Shown: positions 29,202 through 38,839 of the stretch, in pieces
Numbering within the stretch: the stretch's first letter is position 1
Layout of the letters: each line of letters begins with the position of its first letter
Source of the DNA: Chloroflexia bacterium SDU3-3
Lineage (GTDB): Bacteria; Chloroflexota; Chloroflexia; Chloroflexales; Roseiflexaceae
NCBI GenBank assembly: GCA_009268125.1
Contig: WBOU01000022.1
Span: 1 to 64,000 of the forward strand
Direction: 5' to 3'
DNA length: 64,000 nucleotides
Made by a program: the position numbers and the translations under genes
Notes under the pieces: generated by a model
The model's input: the letters and a program-made list of their open reading frames with translations, nothing else
Told to the model about the DNA's origin: nothing
Databases searched by the model: none

Positions 29202-30716
29202 TCAGGCGTTGTAGACCCCCGGCTGGTAGAACATCAGCACCAGCTCCATGGCCTCGGCGTGCGAGATGCCGTTCTGGGCGATACTGTAGCGGCGGATGAG
29301 CTGGGCGATCACGTCATCCACGCGGTCGTCGGGCGGCGTGTCGGCCAGGGGTAGGCCGGTCTGGCTGGCCAGCCTGCGCAGCGTAGTGCGCAGCTCGTCC
29401 TGCGGGCGGGGCAGCAGGCGCTCGCGCTCGCGCCAGTAGCGCACGTTGGCCTTGCCGCAGCCAAAGCAGGCCAGCACCGGCGTGCGCAGCGGCATGTCGT
29501 AGGGCGGCAGCGCGCCCGCGTAGGCGCTGTTGCCGATGTCGATCGCGTCCTGGCCCTCCACATTGCGCGAGAGCGCCAGCCGATAGGCGCGGGCCGTGGT
29601 GTCAGCGTGCACGCCCGAGCCATCGTACTCGGTGTTGGCCGAGAACGGGCTGCGGTCGAAGATAAAGCCGTTGCTGGCGAAGATATGGTAGAAGAAGGCG
29701 TCCATGTCGCGGTAGCAGTTCACGAACAGCTCGCCCGAGGGCAGCGTGCCCAGCCGATCGCGCATGGCGCGGCGGATCTCGGCCATCTTGCGCGGGTAGA
29801 GCAGGATGAGCCGCCGGTAGATCGCCTCCAGCAGCGAGGAGAGGCCGATGGTGCCGTTGCGCTCGCCGATGCCCAGGATGGAAAAGTCGGGCAGCATGGT
29901 GATGCCCAGCCGCTGGCAGAGCAGCAGCGTGTCCACGTACATGCGGTCGGCGTTGCCGATGTCGTTGTGGATGTGGCACTCCAGAAACTGGAAGCGCATC
30001 CCGGCGCGCTGGAGGATGGCGATGCGGTCGCCCAGCTCGGGGATGGACGAGAGTCCCACGGTGTCGGGGATGCCGATGCCATCCACCTCGGTGGCGCTCT
30101 CGGCCAGCAGGCGCTGGAGCGCGGTGTAGAACTGCTCGTAGTCCTCCAGCGGGGTGCGGAAGGCATCCTCGGTGCTGATGCGCACGGTGTGGAAGCCCAG
30201 CTCGCGGGCGTAGCGGATGCTCTGCGCGGCCTTCTCGGCCAGCTGCGGGATGCTGGCGTTGGCGGTAGCCTGCTTGATCGGGCTGGTGCCGATGTACAGG
30301 TGCACGCGGCGGAAGCCCGAGCCGAAGGCCGCGTCGATGTCGGACGGCACGCAGCGGGCGTGGGCCGCGAAGTCGATGGCCAGCCCAGCCTGCCTGGCCC
30401 GCTCCAGCAGGCTCTGGTTCCAGACCTGGCCCGGCTCGTTGGCGGGGTTGGAAGGCAGCTCCACCACGCCCACGCCCAGCCGGTCCATGAAGCGCACGCT
30501 CTCCCAGGCCTCCTCGGCGCTGAGGTGGAAGCCCTGGAGCGTGCCGTCGCGGTTTTCGCCCACGGCCTGGAGCGACTCGCGGATGGAGAAGACCCCGAAG
30601 CCCTGGGCCTTCAGGTAGTCGAACAGCGCGAACAGCTCGGTGGCCTCGCGGTAGCGCTCCTGGGCCGGGTTCTCGCCCGCCAGAAACGGCGGCAATGGTA
30701 GATCTGTGCCTGTCAC
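29202..30716 (-). CDS. Homocitrate-synthase-like enzyme (HMGL/isopropylmalate synthase superfamily)
   Basis: This 504-residue TIM-barrel acyltransferase has the Arg-Glu of the first strand (FSIRESLQ), GIGIPDTVGL, and the metal-binding His pair in LECHIHNDIGNADRM. GIGERNGTIGL matches the GxGERxGN motif. By context it should join 2-oxoglutarate and acetyl-CoA into homocitrate, the first AAA step. It is longer than Thermus-type homocitrate synthase (about 376), with an extra C-terminal segment holding Cys-x-x-Cys (ACFGCGKANVRYW). The start is a GTG with AAAGGAG seven bases upstream; no ATG fits. Homocitrate versus isopropylmalate specificity is inferred from the neighbours. Confidence 0.78.
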   Translation of the reverse strand: MTGTDLPLPPFLAGENPAQERYREATELFALFDYLKAQGFGVFSIRESLQAVGENRDGTLQGFHLSAEEAWESVRFMDRLGVGVVELPSNPANEPGQVWNQSLLERARQAGLAIDFAAHARCVPSDIDAAFGSGFRRVHLYIGTSPIKQATANASIPQLAEKAAQSIRYARELGFHTVRISTEDAFRTPLEDYEQFYTALQRLLAESATEVDGIGIPDTVGLSSIPELGDRIAILQRAGMRFQFLECHIHNDIGNADRMYVDTLLLCQRLGITMLPDFSILGIGERNGTIGLSSLLEAIYRRLILLYPRKMAEIRRAMRDRLGTLPSGELFVNCYRDMDAFFYHIFASNGFIFDRSPFSANTEYDGSGVHADTTARAYRLALSRNVEGQDAIDIGNSAYAGALPPYDMPLRTPVLACFGCGKANVRYWRERERLLPRPQDELRTTLRRLASQTGLPLADTPPDDRVDDVIAQLIRRYSIAQNGISHAEAMELVLMFYQPGVYNA

Positions 30717-30807
30717 AGCCGGTCTCCTTTGAGACGAGGGAGGGGCGAAAGACGAACACCGCTGGCCACTGCGCCGGTTCGGCTTCGCGGTGCGCGTCCC
30801 TCGCACA

Positions 30808-31293
30808 CTAGCTAGAGGTTTTTGCCAGAACGGCGTAGGTGGGCACCGTGTAGCCCTCGTGGCAGCGCTCCTCAACCAGCGCGTAGCCCAGCCGCTCGTA
30901 GCGGGCGCGGGTGAGGGGCAGCGCGGTGCGCACGGCGATTTCGATCCGGGGTGCGCCCAGCGCATGCGCCCGCGCCTCCACGTAGGCGATCAGCGCGCCG
31001 CCCACGCCCTGGCCGCGGTGCTCGGGCAGCACGCCCAGCCTGCCGAAGTACAGGTGGCCCTCGCGCAGCTCGTAGAGCACGCAGCCCACCGCGCGCCCGT
31101 CGATCTCGGCCAGCGCGAGGCCGCCCTGCTGCATCTTCCCGCGCACGCTGTCGCCCGTCTCGCGGATCGCGCCGGTGGGCGGGTCCAGCACGGCCTCCTC
31201 CTCGAAGGCGGTGCGGATGATCTCGGCGGCGCGGTCGGCCTCGCTGGGGCTGGCCTCGCGGATGTGGAATGCGGGCGATGCGTGGTGTGTCAT
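30808..31293 (-). CDS. GNAT-family N-acetyltransferase
   Basis: The 161-residue protein has the acetyl-CoA loop VLPEHRGQGVGGALI (motif A) and a preceding strand LYFGRLGV. The C-terminal RARYERLGYALVEE is typical of GNAT enzymes. The substrate is unknown. It lies between lysY and the homocitrate-synthase-like gene with small gaps, so it is transcribed with lysine genes, but no acetylation step is needed in the LysW pathway. Confidence 0.85.
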   Translation of the reverse strand: MTHHASPAFHIREASPSEADRAAEIIRTAFEEEAVLDPPTGAIRETGDSVRGKMQQGGLALAEIDGRAVGCVLYELREGHLYFGRLGVLPEHRGQGVGGALIAYVEARAHALGAPRIEIAVRTALPLTRARYERLGYALVEERCHEGYTVPTYAVLAKTSS

Positions 31294-31317
31294 GGTTGTG
31301 GTGCTCCCTTGGCGGGG

Positions 31318-32352
31318 CTACACCGGGTGCAGCCCCCAGAACTCAAGCCCTGCGGTCTCTTCGAGGCCGCACATCAGGTTCATGCACTGCACGGCCGAGC
31401 CTGCGGCACCCTTGCCCAGGTTATCGATCGCGCAGATGCTGACGATCCGGCCCGTGGCCTCATCCAGCGCGAAGCCGACATCGGCGTAGTTGGTGCCGGC
31501 CAGGATCTTCGGCTCGGGCAGGCGGTAGATGCCCTGCTTCTCGCGCACGATCCGCACGAATGGCTCGGGCGTGTAGGCGGCGCGGTAGGCCCGCCACAGA
31601 TCCTTCTCGGTGATCGCGCTCTTGGCGAAGGCGTGGGCCGTGGCCACCGCGCCGCGCACCATCTCGATACCGGTGATCGAGAGGTGCACCCGCTCGACCC
31701 CGGTCTCCTGGATGACCTCGGCGGTGTGGCGGTGGCCGGTGGTGGCGAACGAGCGCACCGCGCCCGAGCGCTCGGGGTGGTGCGAGGCGTCGCTCGACTG
31801 CGCGCCGCCCTCGGACGAGCCAACCTTCACCTCCACGATCACGTCGCGGTCGGTGTCGATCAGGCCCGCGCGGGCCAGCGGCAGCAGCGCCAGGTTGGTG
31901 GCGGTGGCGTTGCAGCCCACGCCCGAGACGTAGCTGGCCGCGCGGATCTGCTCGCGGTAGATCTCGGGCAGGCCGTAGACGAAGCGGCCCAGCCACGCGG
32001 GGTTGGGGTGCTCCTCGCCATACCAGCGCTCGTAGGCGGCCGTATCGCGCAGGCGGAAGTCGGCGGAGCAGTCGACGATCTTTGGCGCGAGCGCCGCGAA
32101 CTCCTCGATCCGCTTGGCCGCCGAGCCGTGGGGCAGCGCCAGAAACAGCACGTCGCAGGGCGCGACCTTGCTGGCAGGCACATACTGCAGGCTGGTGTGG
32201 CCGCGCAGGTTGGGGTGGGTGCTGGCCACCGGCTTGCCCGCAAGCCGCTCCGAGGTCACATGCGCAACCTCCACACCCGGGTGGGCCAGCAGCAGCCGCA
32301 GCAGCTCGCCGCCCACATAGCCGCTGCCGCCAATGATGGAGACACGTAGCAT
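31318..32352 (-). CDS. lysY: [LysW]-aminoadipate 6-phosphate reductase
   Basis: This 344-residue NADPH-dependent reductase is of the ArgC family. The nucleotide motif IIGGSGYVGGELLRLL opens the protein, the catalytic Cys lies in SGVGCNATATNLALLPL, and KVGSSEGGAQSSDASHH with GTNYADVGF match ArgC/LysY. It reduces LysW-aminoadipyl phosphate to the semialdehyde. ATG 32352 follows AGAGGA. The same enzyme could serve arginine synthesis with LysW-glutamate. Confidence 0.92.
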   Translation of the reverse strand: MLRVSIIGGSGYVGGELLRLLLAHPGVEVAHVTSERLAGKPVASTHPNLRGHTSLQYVPASKVAPCDVLFLALPHGSAAKRIEEFAALAPKIVDCSADFRLRDTAAYERWYGEEHPNPAWLGRFVYGLPEIYREQIRAASYVSGVGCNATATNLALLPLARAGLIDTDRDVIVEVKVGSSEGGAQSSDASHHPERSGAVRSFATTGHRHTAEVIQETGVERVHLSITGIEMVRGAVATAHAFAKSAITEKDLWRAYRAAYTPEPFVRIVREKQGIYRLPEPKILAGTNYADVGFALDEATGRIVSICAIDNLGKGAAGSAVQCMNLMCGLEETAGLEFWGLHPV

Positions 32353-32401
32353 CTTCTCATTCCTCTTGCGATACCGGCCGCCTACGGGCGGCCCACTGCT
32401 T

Positions 32402-33019
32402 TCAGTTCTTGGCCAGGGCCTCGTCATCCGGCGCGATCTGGCCGATCAGGCGGCCCAGCCCGGTGGCCCCAAAGTCCTCGCGGGTGATGTCCATCAGGAT
32501 GTCGTCGTAGCGCCTGCCGTCGAACAGGCGGGCCGCGCGCAGCCGCCCGGCCTCGCGGAAGCCGGCCTTCAGGTAGGCGCGGTGGCCGCGCTCGTTGAAG
32601 CCGGTGTGCCACAGGTGGATGCTGTGCAGGTTCAGGAAGGTGAAGCCGTACTCGCACATCAGGCGTACCGCCTCGGTGCCGTAGCCCTGGCTCCAGGCGC
32701 TCTTCTCGCCGATGGCGATGCCCAGCTCGGCGCGGCCATGCTGGTGGTCGATCTTCATCAGCGAGACAGAGCCGATGATCTGGGCGGTCTCGCGCACGAT
32801 GATCGCGAAGGTGCGCGTGCTGTCGCTGTTGCGGCTGCTGTACCAGCCCTCCTCATCCTCGTAGGTGTACGAGCGGCCAGACGCGCCAAGGTAGGCGGTC
32901 AGCTCAAGGTCGGCGAACCAGCGGGCGAAGAGCGGCAGGTCGCTGCGATGCGGGTGGCTCAGGTAGATGCGCTCGCCGGGCACAACTTCGATACGGAGCT
33001 GCGGTTCTGGATGGGTCAT
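32402..33019 (-). CDS. GNAT-family acetyltransferase (RimJ/RimL-like)
   Basis: The 205-residue protein has the long GNAT form: IYLSHPHRSDLPLFARWF at the start, IGSVSLMKID and ELGIAIGEKSAWSQGYGTEA as the acetyl-CoA loop, and GFNERGHRAYLKAGF. Relatives acetylate protein N-termini, spermidine or other amines. It lies between lysX and lysY, the second acetyltransferase in the cluster. Its substrate is unknown. Confidence 0.85.
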   Translation of the reverse strand: MTHPEPQLRIEVVPGERIYLSHPHRSDLPLFARWFADLELTAYLGASGRSYTYEDEEGWYSSRNSDSTRTFAIIVRETAQIIGSVSLMKIDHQHGRAELGIAIGEKSAWSQGYGTEAVRLMCEYGFTFLNLHSIHLWHTGFNERGHRAYLKAGFREAGRLRAARLFDGRRYDDILMDITREDFGATGLGRLIGQIAPDDEALAKN

Positions 33020-33130
33020 AGCTTCCTCCCAAAGGTTCTATCACAGAGCGATAAGGCTGGATCTGGGAGAGCATAGCATAACTCTATCTGCCAAGACTCA
33101 TTCCAGAGTTGCAACCTGACCAGCGCAGGG

Positions 33131-33982
33131 CTAGGCCTGGCCCCGCGCCGCCGCCAGGGTGTACTCCACGATATGCGCCGGGATGTTCACGCCGGTGGTC
33201 TCGATGCTGTTGCGGAACTCCATGGTGTAGTTCACCTCGTTCACCAGCAGCCGCCCCTCGGTGTCCTCCAGCACGTCGATCGCCACCACGCCGCCGCCCA
33301 CGGCGCTGGCCGCATTCACACAGATCTCGGCCAGCTCGGGGGTGACGGGGCAGTTGGTGGCCTTGCCGCCGCGCGCGGTGTTGGTGATCCAGTGCTGGCT
33401 GGTGCGGTAGATCGCGCCGATGCACTCGCCGCCCACCACAAACGCGCGGATGTCGCGATCCTCGCGCTTCTGGATGTACTCCTGGATGTAGAACACCGAG
33501 TGGTGGTATGAGCCGAGGATCTGCTTGTGCTCCAGCAGGGCCTCGGCGGACTGCGGGTCGTTGACCTTGGCGATCAGGCGGCCCCACGAGCCGATGCAGG
33601 GCTTCAGCACCGCCGGGTAGCCCAGATCCTCCAGCGCCGCCAGCGCCGCCTCGGGGGTGAAGGCCAGCCGGGTCTGCGGGCTGGGCACGCCCGCCTTGAT
33701 CAGGGCCTGGGTGGTCTTGAACTTGTCGCCGCAGGTGTCGGCCACCTGGTAGGTGTTGACGGTGGGCACGCCCGCGTCGTTGAGGATCTTGAGGGTGTAG
33801 AGCGCGCTGTTGTGCTCGATGCTGCGCTCCAGCACTACATCGTAGGGGTAGCTGCCGCTGTTCAGATCGAAGACGATGTCCTGGTCGTTGATGCGCTCGA
33901 ACGGCACGCCGCGCTTCTCGAACTCGGCGAAGATCAGCTTTTCTTCGACGCGGATGCGCGAGCAGAGAACTCCGATTCGCAT
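33131..33982 (-). CDS. lysX: LysW-aminoadipate ligase (RimK/ATP-grasp family)
   Basis: This 283-residue ATP-grasp ligase attaches alpha-aminoadipate through its amino group to the C-terminal Glu of LysW. Visible parts are [16 protein letters not shown], the [18 protein letters not shown] nucleotide-binding block, [20 protein letters not shown], and the metal-binding [12 protein letters not shown]. Length and motifs match LysX/ArgX. It follows lysW with a 59-base gap, as in Thermus-like AAA operons. Confidence 0.94.
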
Positions 33983-34041
33983 GGTGTGGCTCCTTAAAGC
34001 TGTGCGCGCCGCCCAGGTGGCGGCGCGCTACGGTGGAAAAG

Positions 34042-34209
34042 CTACTCGCCCCAGTCCTCGCCAACCTCGGGCGCAAGCGCCAGCTCGGGCGGGTTGACGC
34101 TCACAACCTCAAGCTCCACCCCGCAGTCTGGGCAGGTGACGATCTCACCCTCGACGGTGTCGGCGTTCAGGCTGATGGTGGCCTCGCACTCTGGGCATGT
34201 GGTCTCCAT
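34042..34209 (-). CDS. lysW: Amino-group carrier protein LysW
   Basis: This 55-residue acidic protein has two zinc-type Cys pairs, Cys5/Cys8 and Cys26/Cys29, and the diagnostic C-terminal EDWGE. The last Glu is the site where LysX attaches the amino group of aminoadipate, and later enzymes act on the carried intermediate. The start METTCPEC is chosen because it matches the usual length; the in-frame extension of 15 residues is unlikely. A 389-base gap with a 21-bp repeat array lies upstream. Confidence 0.95.
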
Positions 34210-34328
34210 GGCTGTGCTCCTTGCTGTGTGGCGCGTGCGCGCCTGCGGGTTCAATGCTATTGTAGCCGCGCCGCCGAGCGACGCGCGCTGTCTTCACGAG
34301 AAAATGTGGCTGCTTCCAGCCGTTCGGC

Positions 34329-34513
34329 CAGTTCCCCCTGACCTTCCGTCAGTTCCCCCTGACCTTCCGTCAGTTCCCCCTGACCTTCGGCCAGTTCCCC
34401 CTGGCCTTCTGTCAGTTCCCCCTGACCTTCCGTCAGTTCCCCCTGACCTTCCGTCAGTTCCCCCTGACCTTCCGTCAGTTCCCCCTGACCTTCCGTCAGT
34501 TCCCCCTGACCTT
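34329..34513. repeat. Nine-unit 21-bp tandem array inside the lysine operon
   Basis: Nine units of CAGTTCCCCCTGACCTTCCGT (with a few changes) run without interruption; the last keeps 17 bases. Across each unit boundary GTCAG-TTCCCC-CTGAC can form a small hairpin. At the 3/4 boundary the left arm changes to GCCAG and the right arm to CTGGC, keeping the pairing. The array lies between homoisocitrate dehydrogenase and lysW in a 389-bp gap with no other gene; both strands are open in frames because the period is a multiple of three. Confidence 0.93.
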
Positions 34514-34598
34514 GTATCAATCTACAAGACGTTCTATCAATCTACTGGCTATTTTCGCACAATCGCGCCGATTCACATCACCTACGCATATTTTTGCG

Positions 34599-35663
34599 CT
34601 ACGCCGACTGAATCAGCTCGATCACCGCCGCCGTGACCTGGGCAGTGGTGGCGCTGCCGCCCAGGTCGGGGGTGGCCGGGCCGTGGGCCAGCGTGGCGCT
34701 GGCGGCGGCGCGGGTGCGCTGGGCCGCAGCCAGGTAGGGCGCGGGGTCGGCCACGCGGGCGGCCAGGTGATCCAGCAGCATGGCCGCGCAGCCGATGGCG
34801 GCCAGCGGGTTGGCCACGCCCCGGCCCGCGATGTCGGGCGCGGCCCCGTGCACCGGCTCGAACAGCGCGGTGCTGCGGCCCAGGTTGGCCGAGGACGCCA
34901 TGCCCATGCCGCCGCCCCAGTAGCAGGCGATGTCCGAGAGGATGTCGCCAAACAGGTTGGTCGTCACGATCACGTCGAAGCGCTCGGGGCGCTGCACCAG
35001 CTGGAGCGCCGCCGTGTCGACCAGCAGCTCATCTACGGCCACATCGGGGAAGGCGGCGGCCACATCCAGCGCGGCGCTGCGGAACAGGCCGCATGTCTCG
35101 CGCAGCACATTGGCCTTGTGCACCACCGTCACGCGGGCGGGGCGCGCGGCAGCCTGGCCCCTGGCGCGGGCCAGCTCCAGCGCGGTGCGCACGATCCGCT
35201 CGCTGGCGGCGCGGGTGATCACGCGCTCGGCGATGGCGGTCGCGCCGCCGTCCTCCAGCCGCTCGCGCCCGGCGTACAGGCCCTCGGTGTTCTCGCGCAC
35301 CACCACCAGATCCACGGCGGCGCGGCCAGCGGCCAGCGTGGCGGGGATGGAGGTGACCGGGCGGATGTTGGCGTACAGGTCGAGGGCGCGGCGCATGCCC
35401 ACGATCGGGCTGCGGTAGCCCTGCACCGGGTGGCTGGGCGAGGCCACCGCGCCAAACAGGATGGCGTCGCTGGCCTGGGCCGCCGCCAGCGTGGCATCCG
35501 GCAGGGCCGCGCCCTGGCGCTGGAAGGTGCCCCAGCCCGCCTCGGCCTCGGCGAACTGCAGCGGCAGGCCGCTGGCGCGCAGCACCGCCACGGCGGCCTC
35601 GGTCACCTCGGGGCCGATGCCATCGCCGGGGATGAGCAGGATGCTCGGTGTGGTGGTGGCCAT
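34599..35663 (-). CDS. hicd: Homoisocitrate dehydrogenase
   Basis: This 354-residue decarboxylating dehydrogenase belongs to the isocitrate/isopropylmalate family. LLIPGDGIGPEVT opens it, VVVRENTEGLYAG is the homoisocitrate/isocitrate-type motif (leucine enzymes usually read RELTGGIYFG), and TNLFGDILSD with FEPVHGAAPDIAG are the metal and NAD regions. It produces 2-oxoadipate. It begins three bases after the lysU stop. Confidence 0.9.
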   Translation of the reverse strand: MATTTPSILLIPGDGIGPEVTEAAVAVLRASGLPLQFAEAEAGWGTFQRQGAALPDATLAAAQASDAILFGAVASPSHPVQGYRSPIVGMRRALDLYANIRPVTSIPATLAAGRAAVDLVVVRENTEGLYAGRERLEDGGATAIAERVITRAASERIVRTALELARARGQAAARPARVTVVHKANVLRETCGLFRSAALDVAAAFPDVAVDELLVDTAALQLVQRPERFDVIVTTNLFGDILSDIACYWGGGMGMASSANLGRSTALFEPVHGAAPDIAGRGVANPLAAIGCAAMLLDHLAARVADPAPYLAAAQRTRAAASATLAHGPATPDLGGSATTAQVTAAVIELIQSA

Positions 35664-35666
35664 GGG

Positions 35667-36170
35667 CTACTGCGCCTCGGGCTGGCCGGGGAAGCGGCCA
35701 TGCTGCTTGTAGTAGGGCACGATCCCGCCAGCGGCCCACACCTCGCGCAGGAAGGCGGGCGGCGGCGGCAGCTGGATCTGCTGGCCGTCGGCCACGATCA
35801 GGCCGTGCTCTAGGTCGGTCTCGACCTCCTGGCCGTCGCGCAGCAGCTGGGTCAGGTCGGCCTCGAAGCAGGGGATGCCCAGGTTCAGCGCGTTGCGGTA
35901 GAAGATGCGGGCGAACAGCGGGGCGATGATCGCGCCCACCTGCACCATCTTCAGGGCCAGCGGCGCGTACTCGCGCGAGGAGCCGCAGCCGAAGTTGGGG
36001 CCGGCCACCAGCAGGTCGCCCGGCTGCACCGTGCCCGCAAACTCGGGGCGGGCCTCCACAAAGGGGTACTGGCGCAGCATGGCCTCATCCTTCAGCATAT
36101 AGGGGGCGTAGCGGCCAGGGACGATCTGATCGGTGTTGACGTTGGGGCCAAAGATCCAGACGCGAGCCAT
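35667..36170 (-). CDS. lysU: Homoaconitase small subunit
   Basis: This 167-residue swivel-domain protein is of the LeuD/aconitase C-terminal type. GPNVNTDQIVPGRY, NFGCGSSREYAPLALK and the loop before IFYRNALNLGIPCFE are diagnostic. With LysT it isomerises homocitrate to homoisocitrate. The start at 36170 drops a 30-residue upstream frame without support. LeuD function is possible, but the position in the LysW operon favours the lysine pathway. Confidence 0.9.
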   Translation of the reverse strand: MARVWIFGPNVNTDQIVPGRYAPYMLKDEAMLRQYPFVEARPEFAGTVQPGDLLVAGPNFGCGSSREYAPLALKMVQVGAIIAPLFARIFYRNALNLGIPCFEADLTQLLRDGQEVETDLEHGLIVADGQQIQLPPPPAFLREVWAAGGIVPYYKQHGRFPGQPEAQ

Positions 36171-36216
36171 GTCTATTCTCCTTGCCCGCAGCGCGGGCGT
36201 TCGTTCTGGTAAAAAG

Positions 36217-36825
36217 CTAGCGGGCCAGCAGGCTGAGCAGCGCCGCCGCGCCAAAGCCAAAGATGATCAGGCCAGAGATGCGGTTCACCCACAGCATCGC
36301 GGCGGCATTGAAGCGCGAGCGCAGCAGGCTGACCCCGCCGCTGAGCAGCAGCCACCACAGCGCCGAGCCGAGGAACACGCCCAGCACCAGCAGCAGCGCC
36401 ATGCCGCCCACGCCGCCGAACAGGCCCAGGCTGGCGAACACCGCGCTGAACAGCACGATGCTGGCCGGGTTGGTGAGCGTGAGGAAGAAGGTGGATGCAT
36501 ACGCGCCCAGCAGGCTGCTGCCGCCCGCCTGCGCCGCCTGCTCGGCGGGCCGCGAGAGCAGCGTGCGCACGCCTAGGTAGCACAGGAACGCGCCGCCCAG
36601 CAGCTTGATCCAGGTCTGCTGCTGCATCAGGAAGCCGGAGATGATCGCCAGACCAAACGCGGCAACGCTGCCGAACACCGCATCCGCCGAGGCCGCCCCC
36701 AGCCCGGTGGCAAGCCCAACCGTCCGACCATCCGCCAGCGTCCGCCGGATGCACAGCACCCCGATCGGCCCGACTGGCGCTGCGATCGAGAAGCCGATCA
36801 GCAGTCCCTGAAGCAGCAGATTCAT
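36217..36825 (-). CDS. LysE/RhtB-family amino-acid exporter
   Basis: The 202-residue membrane protein has about six hydrophobic segments. The family start MNLLLQGLLIGFSIAAPVGPIGVLCIRR holds the PVGPI motif, with TNPASIVLFSAVF later. The ATG at 36825 follows GGAGGAAGG. LysE-type carriers export lysine, arginine, threonine or homoserine. Sitting between the two homoaconitase genes, it suggests a safety valve for lysine, which is inference. Confidence 0.92.
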   Translation of the reverse strand: MNLLLQGLLIGFSIAAPVGPIGVLCIRRTLADGRTVGLATGLGAASADAVFGSVAAFGLAIISGFLMQQQTWIKLLGGAFLCYLGVRTLLSRPAEQAAQAGGSSLLGAYASTFFLTLTNPASIVLFSAVFASLGLFGGVGGMALLLVLGVFLGSALWWLLLSGGVSLLRSRFNAAAMLWVNRISGLIIFGFGAAALLSLLAR

Positions 36826-36942
36826 GCCTTCCTCCATCAAACAAAGCCATCTATCGCAAAGCTACCGAGATTGATAAAGATGAAAGGGTATCTTTCCCGC
36901 TTTGCGCTGCGCGCACCGCTCAAGAGCGCGGCGGCACCCGCC

Positions 36943-38199
36943 CTACAGAACCTCGGCGGGATTGGTGATGTAGCCAGTGATCGCGGTGGCGGCGGCCACC
37001 TCGGGCGAGCCGAGGTAGATCTGGGCCTCGGGCGAGCCCATGCGGCCACGGAAGTTGCGGTTGCCGGTGAACAGGCAGGTCTCGCCGCCCGCCAGCACGC
37101 CCATGTGCCGCCCGATGCACGCGCCGCACCCCGGCGTGCCGATGGTCGCGCCGGCCTGGATGAGCGTGGCCAGCGTGCCGTCATTGGTGGCCTGGAGCAT
37201 GGCCTCGGATGTGGCGGGCACCACGATCAGGCGGGTGCCGGGGGCCACGCGGCGGCCCTTCAGCATGCGGGCGGCGGCGGCCATATGGTCGTAGTGGCCA
37301 TTGGTGCAGGTGCCCAGGTAGACCACATCCACCCTCACCTGGCCCAGGTCGCTCAGGTCCACCACGTTGTCCACGTGGTGCGGCACGCTGATCTGCGGCT
37401 CTAGGGTGCCCAGATCCACCTCCACCACGCGGCTGTAGGTCGCGCCATCCTGCACGCTGAGCCACGCGGGTACCTGGTAGCCCAGCCGCGCCGCGTGGGC
37501 CTCGATGGCCGGGCCGGTGGGGGCCACGATGCCCGCCTTGCCGCCCACCTCGATCGAGAGGGTGGCCAGCGTCATACGCTCGCCCAGCGAGAGGGCGTCC
37601 AGCCCGTGCCACTCAACCGACTGGTAGGTCGCGCCATCCGCGCCGATCTCGCGGGCCACGCGCAGGCCCAGATCCTTGGCGCTGACGCCGGGGCGCAGCG
37701 CGCCGCTGGCCTGCACGCGCACCGTCTCGGGCACGCGCATCCAGGTCTGGCCGGTGGCCAGGGCCAGCGCGATGTCGGTGGTGCCCATGCCCGAGCCGAA
37801 CGCGCCCACGGTACCATAGCCGGTGGAGTGCGAGTCGCTGCCGATGATCAGCATGCCGGGGCGGGCCAGCCCCTCCTCCACCAGCACGGGGTGCGAGATG
37901 CCGCGCCCCACGTCGAAGAAGTGCTGGATCTGCTGCTCGCGCACCCAGCGGCGCAGGTTGGCCTGGTGCTCGGCGTTCTGCACGGTGGCCGCCGGGGCCA
38001 CGTGGTCCACCACCACCGCGATGCGGGATGGGTCAAACACGCGCTCGGCCCCCAGCTCGTTGTGCAGCACCTTGATGATGCTGGGCGAGATGCTGTCGTG
38101 CATCATCACCAGGTCGACATTCACCACCACATTCTCGCCAGCGTGGGCCTCGTGCCCGGCGGCGTGCGAGAGGATCTGCTCAGCCAGTGTCTGTGCCAT
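36943..38199 (-). CDS. lysT: Homoaconitase large subunit
   Basis: This 418-residue 4Fe-4S hydro-lyase is of the LeuC/aconitase family. DSHSTGYGTVGAFGSGMGTTD, the cluster ligand in LGTCTNGHYDHM and the pair in IGTPGCGACIGRHMG are visible. The start MAQTLAEQIL follows AAAGGAG; the in-frame extension to 38325 is rejected. It is the first enzyme gene after the attenuator-like leader. Reaction: homocitrate to homoaconitate to homoisocitrate together with LysU. Confidence 0.93.
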   Translation of the reverse strand: MAQTLAEQILSHAAGHEAHAGENVVVNVDLVMMHDSISPSIIKVLHNELGAERVFDPSRIAVVVDHVAPAATVQNAEHQANLRRWVREQQIQHFFDVGRGISHPVLVEEGLARPGMLIIGSDSHSTGYGTVGAFGSGMGTTDIALALATGQTWMRVPETVRVQASGALRPGVSAKDLGLRVAREIGADGATYQSVEWHGLDALSLGERMTLATLSIEVGGKAGIVAPTGPAIEAHAARLGYQVPAWLSVQDGATYSRVVEVDLGTLEPQISVPHHVDNVVDLSDLGQVRVDVVYLGTCTNGHYDHMAAAARMLKGRRVAPGTRLIVVPATSEAMLQATNDGTLATLIQAGATIGTPGCGACIGRHMGVLAGGETCLFTGNRNFRGRMGSPEAQIYLGSPEVAAATAITGYITNPAEVL

Positions 38200-38501: not shown

Positions 38502-38621
38502 CTATGCTGTGCGTTCAGGTTCACCATGGCTACTTCTCCGTTCAACAGGTATGCTCAGGCTGCGGGCGACGGCGGCGTGCTGCATCTGGGTTTTCTGTTT
38601 GGTCGATAGTAGCTGTTTCAT
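38502..38621 (-). CDS. Possible small ORF between attenuator and lysT
   Basis: A 39-codon frame begins MKQLLSTKQKTQMQ with three early lysines and has CCAGGAG seven bases upstream of its ATG. It starts 28 bases after the leader terminator, so it would be the first thing translated on read-through. It could be a second leader peptide or a decayed gene. A frame downstream of it (38527 to 38216) is Arg/Pro-rich and looks non-coding. No family is recognised. Confidence 0.35.
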   Translation of the reverse strand: MKQLLSTKQKTQMQHAAVARSLSIPVERRSSHGEPERTA

Positions 38622-38648: not shown

Positions 38649-38687
38649 AAAAAGGCCCGCTCCACCGTATGTCTGGTGAAGCGGGCC
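38649..38687 (-). terminator. Leader terminator (attenuator) of the lysine operon
   Basis: On the minus strand GGCCCGCTTCACC (38687-38675) pairs with GGTGGAGCGGGCC (38666-38654), a 13-bp stem with one G-U pair and an eight-base loop, followed at once by five T. It lies about 26 bases after the leader-peptide stop and about 450 bases before lysT. Its left arm can instead pair with the end of the leader-peptide gene. Confidence 0.9.
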
Positions 38688-38712
38688 TGTACACATTCGC
38701 GCGACAAGCAAG

Positions 38713-38775
38713 CTAACCAGACGTGATGTCCGGTTTTTTCACCTGCTGTTTCTGCTGGAACGTGGTGTGGTTCAT
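38713..38775 (-). CDS. Leader peptide of the lysine operon (20 residues)
   Basis: ATG at 38775 begins about 29 bases after the predicted transcription start, with AGGGA close upstream. The product ends FQQKQQVKKPDITSG and stops at 38713. Three of 20 codons are Lys (all AAA), two of them adjacent (codons 13-14). These stand immediately before AACCGGAC, which pairs with GTCTGGTT around the stop codon; that second segment can instead pair with the terminator left arm. This is the arrangement of ribosome-mediated attenuation, with lysyl-tRNA shortage as the signal. Translation itself is not proven. Confidence 0.75.
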   Translation of the reverse strand: MNHTTFQQKQQVKKPDITSG

Positions 38776-38810
38776 GGTTCCCTAAAAGACGATTTGACTA
38801 AACCGGCGTG

Positions 38811-38839
38811 AGTATAGCACCGCCGCCAGCGTTCGTCAA
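38811..38839 (-). promoter_or_regulatory. Main promoter of the lysine operon
   Basis: TTGACG (38839-38834) and TATACT (38816-38811) on the minus strand are exactly 17 bases apart, a near-consensus sigma-70-type promoter. Transcription should start near 38804 and run through the leader peptide and attenuator into lysT. Confidence 0.88.

Follow-up and report, generated by a model that had tools for sequence, protein, structure and literature searches.

The lysine (AAA-pathway) operon of Chloroflexia bacterium SDU3-3, contained in the 64,000-nucleotide stretch of contig WBOU01000022.1 analyzed here (the window), is preceded by a compact RNA element of about 110 nt, which we regard with high confidence as an attenuator of the trp/his type, in which a translating ribosome controls transcription in response to lysine. 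The anatomy of this leader, its conservation, the two-sided base changes in its three helices, and the match between its codons and the downstream pathway were observed in the sequences and point to an attenuator that is real and very likely functional. A first-pass annotation of this DNA had proposed the same design; its reading is supported by relatives, in which the Lys codons as well as the alternative stem are retained, and by the scaffold carrying Arg codons before argG, argJ, and argCBD. The larger point is that the attenuator appears to be one member of an RNA family that is widespread in Chloroflexota and in which lysine and arginine codons have been exchanged.

The promoter, the 20-codon peptide with AAA AAA at Lys13-14, stem 1:2 with its loop ATCAC, the alternative stem 2:3, and the terminator of 13 bp followed by five T residues had all been named in the first-pass annotation, and each was borne out on the minus strand of the window (Table 1). 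The leader reads ATG-AAC-CAC-ACC-ACG-TTC-CAG-CAG-AAA-CAG-CAG-GTG-AAA-AAA-CCG-GAC-ATC-ACG-TCT-GGT-TAG, with Lys residues at positions 9, 13, and 14, the first of which had been missed. Segment 1 starts within the second AAA codon of the tandem pair, and segment 2 overlaps the last codons of the leader and its stop codon. The outer arm of hairpin 1:2 extends beyond what had been described, adding AGCAGG with CTTGCT. GTCTGGT of segment 2 can pair instead with ACCAGAC of segment 3, continued by AGC/GCT, and this antiterminator helix is mutually exclusive with both 1:2 and 3:4. The GC-rich terminator, GGCCCGCTTCACC-AGACATAC-GGTGGAGCGGGCC-TTTTT, has no mismatch and is positioned between the leader ORF and the first structural gene. 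A spacer hairpin, recognized by eye in aligned leaders with both G-U and Watson-Crick variants, sits between segments 2 and 3, inside the antiterminator loop. In Roseiflexus and Herpetosiphon relatives, TTGACA-17-TACACT/TATACT-like promoters were found at the equivalent place upstream of the leaders.

Table 1. Features of the leader and of the downstream operon in the window
Feature	Position	Strand	Basis
Sigma-70-type promoter TTGACG-17-TATACT (TTGACG 38839-38834, TATACT 38816-38811)	38811..38839	-	sequence
Leader ORF, 20 codons + TAG, MNHTTFQQKQQVKKPDITSG*	38713..38775	-	sequence; peptide pattern common to relatives
Third Lys codon (Lys9)	38749-38751	-	sequence
Lys codons 13 and 14 in tandem (AAA AAA), where the ribosome is proposed to stall	38734..38739	-	Lys kept in relatives
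Outer arm of hairpin 1:2, AGCAGG	38742..38747	-	minimum-energy structure; pairs with CTTGCT 38712-38707
Segment 1, AACCGGAC	38728..38735	-	pairs with segment 2; helix 90.8% paired (58 sequences)
Segment 2, GTCTGGTT	38715..38722	-	GTCTGG nearly invariant; must pair with both segments 1 and 3
Spacer hairpin GCTTGT/ACAGGC	38704..38709 / 38690-38685	-	by eye in aligned leaders
Segment 3, ACCAGAC (top of terminator left arm and first loop bases)	38671..38677	-	covariation, loop conservation
Intrinsic terminator, stem 3:4, 13 bp, loop AGACATAC, TTTTT	38649..38687	-	sequence; helix kept in relatives
Second small ORF MKQLLSTKQKTQMQHAAVARSLSIPVERRSSHGEPERTA*, after terminator, AGGAG upstream	38502..38621	-	sequence
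lysT, of the homoaconitase large subunit family; first structural gene under the proposed control	36943..38199	-	NCBIfam TIGR01343/TIGR02086
Remainder of AAA operon	29202..36840	-	NCBIfam and Pfam matches
lysE-family transporter	36840-36217	-	NCBIfam/Pfam
lysU	36170-35667	-	NCBIfam/Pfam
Homoisocitrate dehydrogenase	35663-34599	-	NCBIfam/Pfam
lysW	34209-34042	-	CPEC/CPDC and EDWGE motifs
lysX	33982-33131	-	NCBIfam/Pfam
GNAT (first)	33019-32402	-	NCBIfam/Pfam
lysY/argC	32427-31318	-	NCBIfam/Pfam
GNAT (second)	31293-30808	-	NCBIfam/Pfam
Homocitrate synthase ORF	30965-29202	-	NCBIfam/Pfam

From this arrangement we infer a sequence of steps comprising transcription, translation of the leader, ribosome stalling, and a change in read-through. 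A ribosome would translate the leader during transcription of the region by RNA polymerase. If lysyl-tRNA is ample, this ribosome would reach the stop codon in segment 2 and cover this segment, leaving segment 3 free to form the 3:4 terminator, and transcription would end before lysT. If lysyl-tRNA is in short supply, the ribosome would wait at the Lys codons and cover segment 1; segment 2 could then pair with segment 3 ahead of the synthesis of segment 4, the terminator would be pre-empted, and the operon would be transcribed.

Conservation of the Lys codons among relatives is in line with this mechanism. With codons numbered backwards from the stop, Lys is encoded at -14, -11, -8, and -7 in 44, 48, 45, and 43 of 49 leaders, respectively, and the peptides share the pattern K-Q-x-K-x-x-K-K-P-[DA]-x-x-S-G*. 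Codon -8 is unpaired in both helices. Here, the pairwise difference was 0.46 at the third codon position as opposed to 0.08 at the first and 0.12 at the second, and silent AAA/AAG swaps predominate while Lys stays, a pattern that would be expected if the codon is read. Three Lys residues in 20 codons, compared to 1.6% Lys in the proteins of the neighboring operon, gave p = 0.004 for this leader alone; the conservation of Lys among relatives is far stronger evidence than this single-leader value. Two leaders (L047 and L083) carry just two Lys codons each. Codon -13, next to the first Lys, specifies Gln in 48 of the 49 leaders, and AGCAG/CTGCT pairing accounts for the conservation of this codon in some sequences only.

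The alternative stem is likewise kept in relatives, and two-sided changes were detected in all three helices. Helix statistics were derived from an alignment (A4) of 58 lysine leaders that was not fitted to 2:3. In the combined 1:2 and 3:4 structure, 90.9% of cells were paired, and 14 pairs had two-sided changes in 124 cells, compared to 8.5 pairs and 45.7 cells in shuffled controls and at most 8 pairs and 31 cells in slid controls; kinship among the sequences inflates such two-sided counts, and the slid controls are the fairer comparison. The outer helix of hairpin 1:2 was 95.1% paired, with two-sided changes in three of its five pairs. For the homologous 12-bp terminator helix, pairing amounted to 94.9%, and 7 of the 12 pairs had changed on both sides. 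T-runs are weaker in the terminators of some relatives. The 2:3 helix was paired in 89.4% of cells versus 17-45% in slid controls, and its two-sided cells numbered 32 versus 16.2 +/- 2.6 after shuffling and at most 12 after sliding. One 2:3 pair occurs as C-G in 22 sequences but in the flipped form, G-C, in 19, and its column stays paired in 3:4 too: a single base is tied to two alternative partners. The terminator-loop bases AGAC, which are free in 3:4 but take part in 2:3, are kept in 47-57 of the 58 leaders, and the subsequent loop positions vary.

A covariance model (R1) built from 20 sequences recovered the element from 64 of the 82 genomes of Chloroflexales (E <= 0.01, best 1e-28, the E-values of this model and of R2, described below, being rough); R1 includes the Lys codon columns, so its matches lean towards Lys. 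The relatives compared included Roseiflexaceae bacterium ES-bin-105, which gave the best match, and Roseiflexus, Kouleothrix, Chloroflexus, Oscillochloris, Chloroploca, Viridilinea, and Herpetosiphon. Across them, the element lies upstream of lysT, hcs, or lysW-lysX-argC. It precedes lysT in Roseiflexaceae, being placed further upstream in the closest relative (L035), and in Chloroflexaceae and family f2 it precedes the homocitrate synthase gene, which is itself upstream of lysT. Confinement of the element to Roseiflexaceae was considered and rejected: a terminator scan within 600 nt of lysT had missed most relatives because other families have hcs between leader and lysT. Two Roseiflexaceae genomes possess a second copy upstream of lysW-lysX-argC (L127, L144). 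Herpetosiphon and one related genome have a divergent KK...KKP leader before hcs, e.g., MFSQQLYLNSKKRSAKKPGSESGLLRRV*, which R1 missed, and the Lys codons of the f2 and Herpetosiphon leaders stand in other registers. In a genome outside the class, a KKSKRIK leader was found before lysW-hcs-lysT (L162). Weak R1 matches such as L154 were rejected as unrelated hairpins. In genus g8, with genomes of about 3 Mb (L133, L134, L136, L138), a lysine leader precedes LysE-like and cystathionine gamma-synthase-like genes; lysX lies shortly downstream where seen, and LysT was not found at the cutoff used.

Weaker R1 matches carry other codons at the place of Lys. Among them are Arg-rich leaders, such as MNRPHATPRRLRRTQPDQTSG* before argG, and in Oscillochloris relatives an Arg-rich leader lies upstream of a phosphatase-like gene and argJ. 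Model R2, built from the scaffold of lysine leaders only and starting after the codons, removes the Lys bias of R1. It matched Arg-rich leaders before argG, argJ, and argC-argB-argD, including one in a genome of another class, MVYQVRSLNNRYPRRPRMVAPDDVSG* upstream of argC-argB-argD. With R2, a leader was found at 16 argG loci, namely 15 of the 18 from Chloroflexaceae and f2 and one further locus (L142). At 12 argG loci of Roseiflexaceae (including the SDU3-3 genome itself), family f3 (Herpetosiphonaceae), and other families, R2 found none. None of 20,000 label permutations reached the observed cognate-codon statistic, for which the groups were defined after the data were seen. As the codon-free R2 recognizes Arg-rich leaders before arg genes, codon identity tracks the downstream pathway on a shared scaffold. 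We consider it likely that an ancestral Chloroflexota attenuator RNA was copied and re-coded, the leaders of lysine genes having Lys codons, those of argG, argJ, and argC-argB-argD Arg codons, and those of LysE-family transporters probably Gln codons, and that the copies retained the antiterminator/terminator scaffold. If true, this would constitute a modular, re-programmable attenuator family, including a bacterial ribosome-mediated arginine attenuator. With Lys or Arg codons placed on one scaffold according to the downstream gene, evolution would in effect have run the codon swap, and the codons at which the ribosome waits could be read from sequence.

Gln-rich leaders on the same scaffold (e.g., QQRGQQQP and KQQQQSQ) were observed before LysE-family transporters at eight loci (L140, L146, L149, L155, L157, L159, L160, L164); the meaning of their Gln codons is less certain because CAG is able to form pairs with CTG of the outer stem as well. 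At another locus (L163, genome G327), the scaffold leader MPMRLPSPPEPEKPDRRSG* precedes genes for a calcineurin-like phosphoesterase and a DUF4032 protein.

Folding calculations bear on how the alternative helices might compete. The minimum free energy of the RNA from 38806 to 38640 was -64.3 kcal/mol versus -43.7 +/- 4.1 for dinucleotide shuffles (z = -5.0; reached by 0 of 200 shuffles). Constrained folding assumed a ribosome footprint of 13 nt past the A site and included 62 lysine loci, with the leader of the E. coli trp operon (checked against 5,371 genomes) as control. Geometry and constrained folding agree that a ribosome waiting at the Lys codons covers segment 1 and leaves segment 2 free, and that at the stop position it covers segment 2; the zero 2:3 pairing in the latter case is imposed by masking segment 2 and is not a result. 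With the RNA ending with segment 3 and a ribosome on the last Lys codon, the mean 2:3 probability was 0.85 versus 0.52 in free RNA, and 0.86 versus 0.31 for the leader in the window, so that a stalled ribosome is predicted to favor 2:3 before segment 4 exists. In the complete RNA including segment 4, the terminator was favored at equilibrium in most loci despite the stalled ribosome; 3:4 reached a probability of 1.00 in the window, and the E. coli trp leader was likewise terminator-favoring (0.85). Full-transcript equilibrium folding thus fails to separate stalled from unstalled states, here and for E. coli trp, and was excluded as evidence. Because a stalled ribosome does not shift the equilibrium away from the terminator, antitermination must be kinetic, occurring during transcription.

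The dominance of 3:4 at equilibrium is also what would be seen if the hairpin were a terminator, either constitutive or under protein control, that sets a basal level of expression irrespective of amino acid supply. We give this explanation very little credence, as it leaves unexplained the silently kept Lys codons, the conserved loop AGAC, the two-sided changes in 2:3, and the Arg codons before arg genes. Nascent-peptide arrest of the TnaC or SpeFL type, in which the C-terminal KKPxxxSG in the ribosome would sense free lysine rather than lysyl-tRNA, might account for the strong C-terminal peptide conservation in the 49 leaders. However, conservation of S-G and P follows from that of the RNA segments GTCTGG and CCGG encoding them, the residues at the stall position differ in the Arg and Gln versions, and the Lys codon registers differ in family f2 and Herpetosiphon. 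Moreover, lysine would induce its own synthesis genes, which is the wrong sign, making arrest very improbable. Riboswitches and T-boxes are common in front of such genes, and a terminator leader with alternative helices upstream of lysine genes would suit a metabolite-binding lysine riboswitch or a T-box with an incidental small ORF; yet this is exceedingly improbable given the compactness of the RNA, the Lys codons kept via silent changes, the Arg codons on the same scaffold before arginine genes, and the Rfam searches, in which no lysine riboswitch, T-box, or other family fitting the leader was found in the whole window at gathering scores, and nothing fitting it in nine loci including L001 at E <= 1.

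Downstream of the leader, the operon has the order lysT, LysE-family gene, lysU, hicDH, lysW, lysX, GNAT, lysY/argC, GNAT, hcs. The LysE-family transporter gene is embedded in this biosynthetic operon, between lysT and lysU, and a seven-residue repeat unit (TEGQGEL / SVPPDLP on opposite strands) occupies 34257-34520, between lysW and homoisocitrate dehydrogenase. The small ORF behind the terminator, MKQLLSTKQKTQMQHAAVARSLSIPVERRSSHGEPERTA*, has a Lys/Gln-rich start, and other post-terminator small ORFs were seen in L035 and L036. A conserved small ORF of 31-38 codons lies between terminator and hcs in L086, L090, L091, L096, and 26 others, and in Herpetosiphon aurantiacus (L182). It has the motif TPRxxRPELFGxCQxR, runs into the hcs start codon (with an ATGA overlap in Herpetosiphon), and had no match in Pfam or NCBIfam. 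This ORF may be a second uORF or encode a translationally coupled small protein, which suggests an additional control layer before homocitrate synthase.

For AAA-pathway bacteria across the order, including Chloroflexus, Roseiflexus, Oscillochloris, Herpetosiphon, and relatives, these observations provide a clear, testable rule of lysine control. Our literature search, which covered few subscription papers, turned up neither a lysine nor an arginine attenuator in Chloroflexota, nor an arginine attenuator of this type in any bacterium. The Chloroflexota RNA family, which would be an addition to Rfam, and its arginine re-coding look new. The claim of the first-pass annotation that such control was undescribed for this pathway is, by contrast, probably wrong: in 2005, Tsubouchi and colleagues reportedly described, in J Biol Chem, leader-peptide transcription attenuation of the lysine (AAA) cluster of Thermus thermophilus. 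That system reportedly shares the pathway, a Lys-containing leader peptide, and transcription attenuation with the one presented here; it belongs to another phylum, and the likeness lies in these reported features. We know of no arginine version of the T. thermophilus attenuator.

Among known and candidate systems, uORFC-8-2 before cysS in Rhodobacterales, with tandem cognate codons at positions 14-15, was read as a candidate for ribosome-mediated attenuation (PMC8632094). It resembles the Chloroflexales leader in the tandem cognate codons within a uORF and in this reading, and differs in its Cys codons, the aminoacyl-tRNA synthetase gene that it precedes, and its alphaproteobacterial hosts; the main text of that study mentions neither Chloroflexota nor lysine (PMC8632094). 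E. coli trpL shares with the Chloroflexales leader a leader peptide with tandem regulatory codons, the exclusive 1:2, 2:3, and 3:4 helices, a stop codon near segment 2, an intrinsic terminator, and the same behavior in constrained folding. In contrast to trpL, the Chloroflexales leader has Lys instead of Trp codons and its stop codon within segment 2, its segment 3 reaches into the terminator loop, and it carries an extra hairpin between segments 2 and 3.
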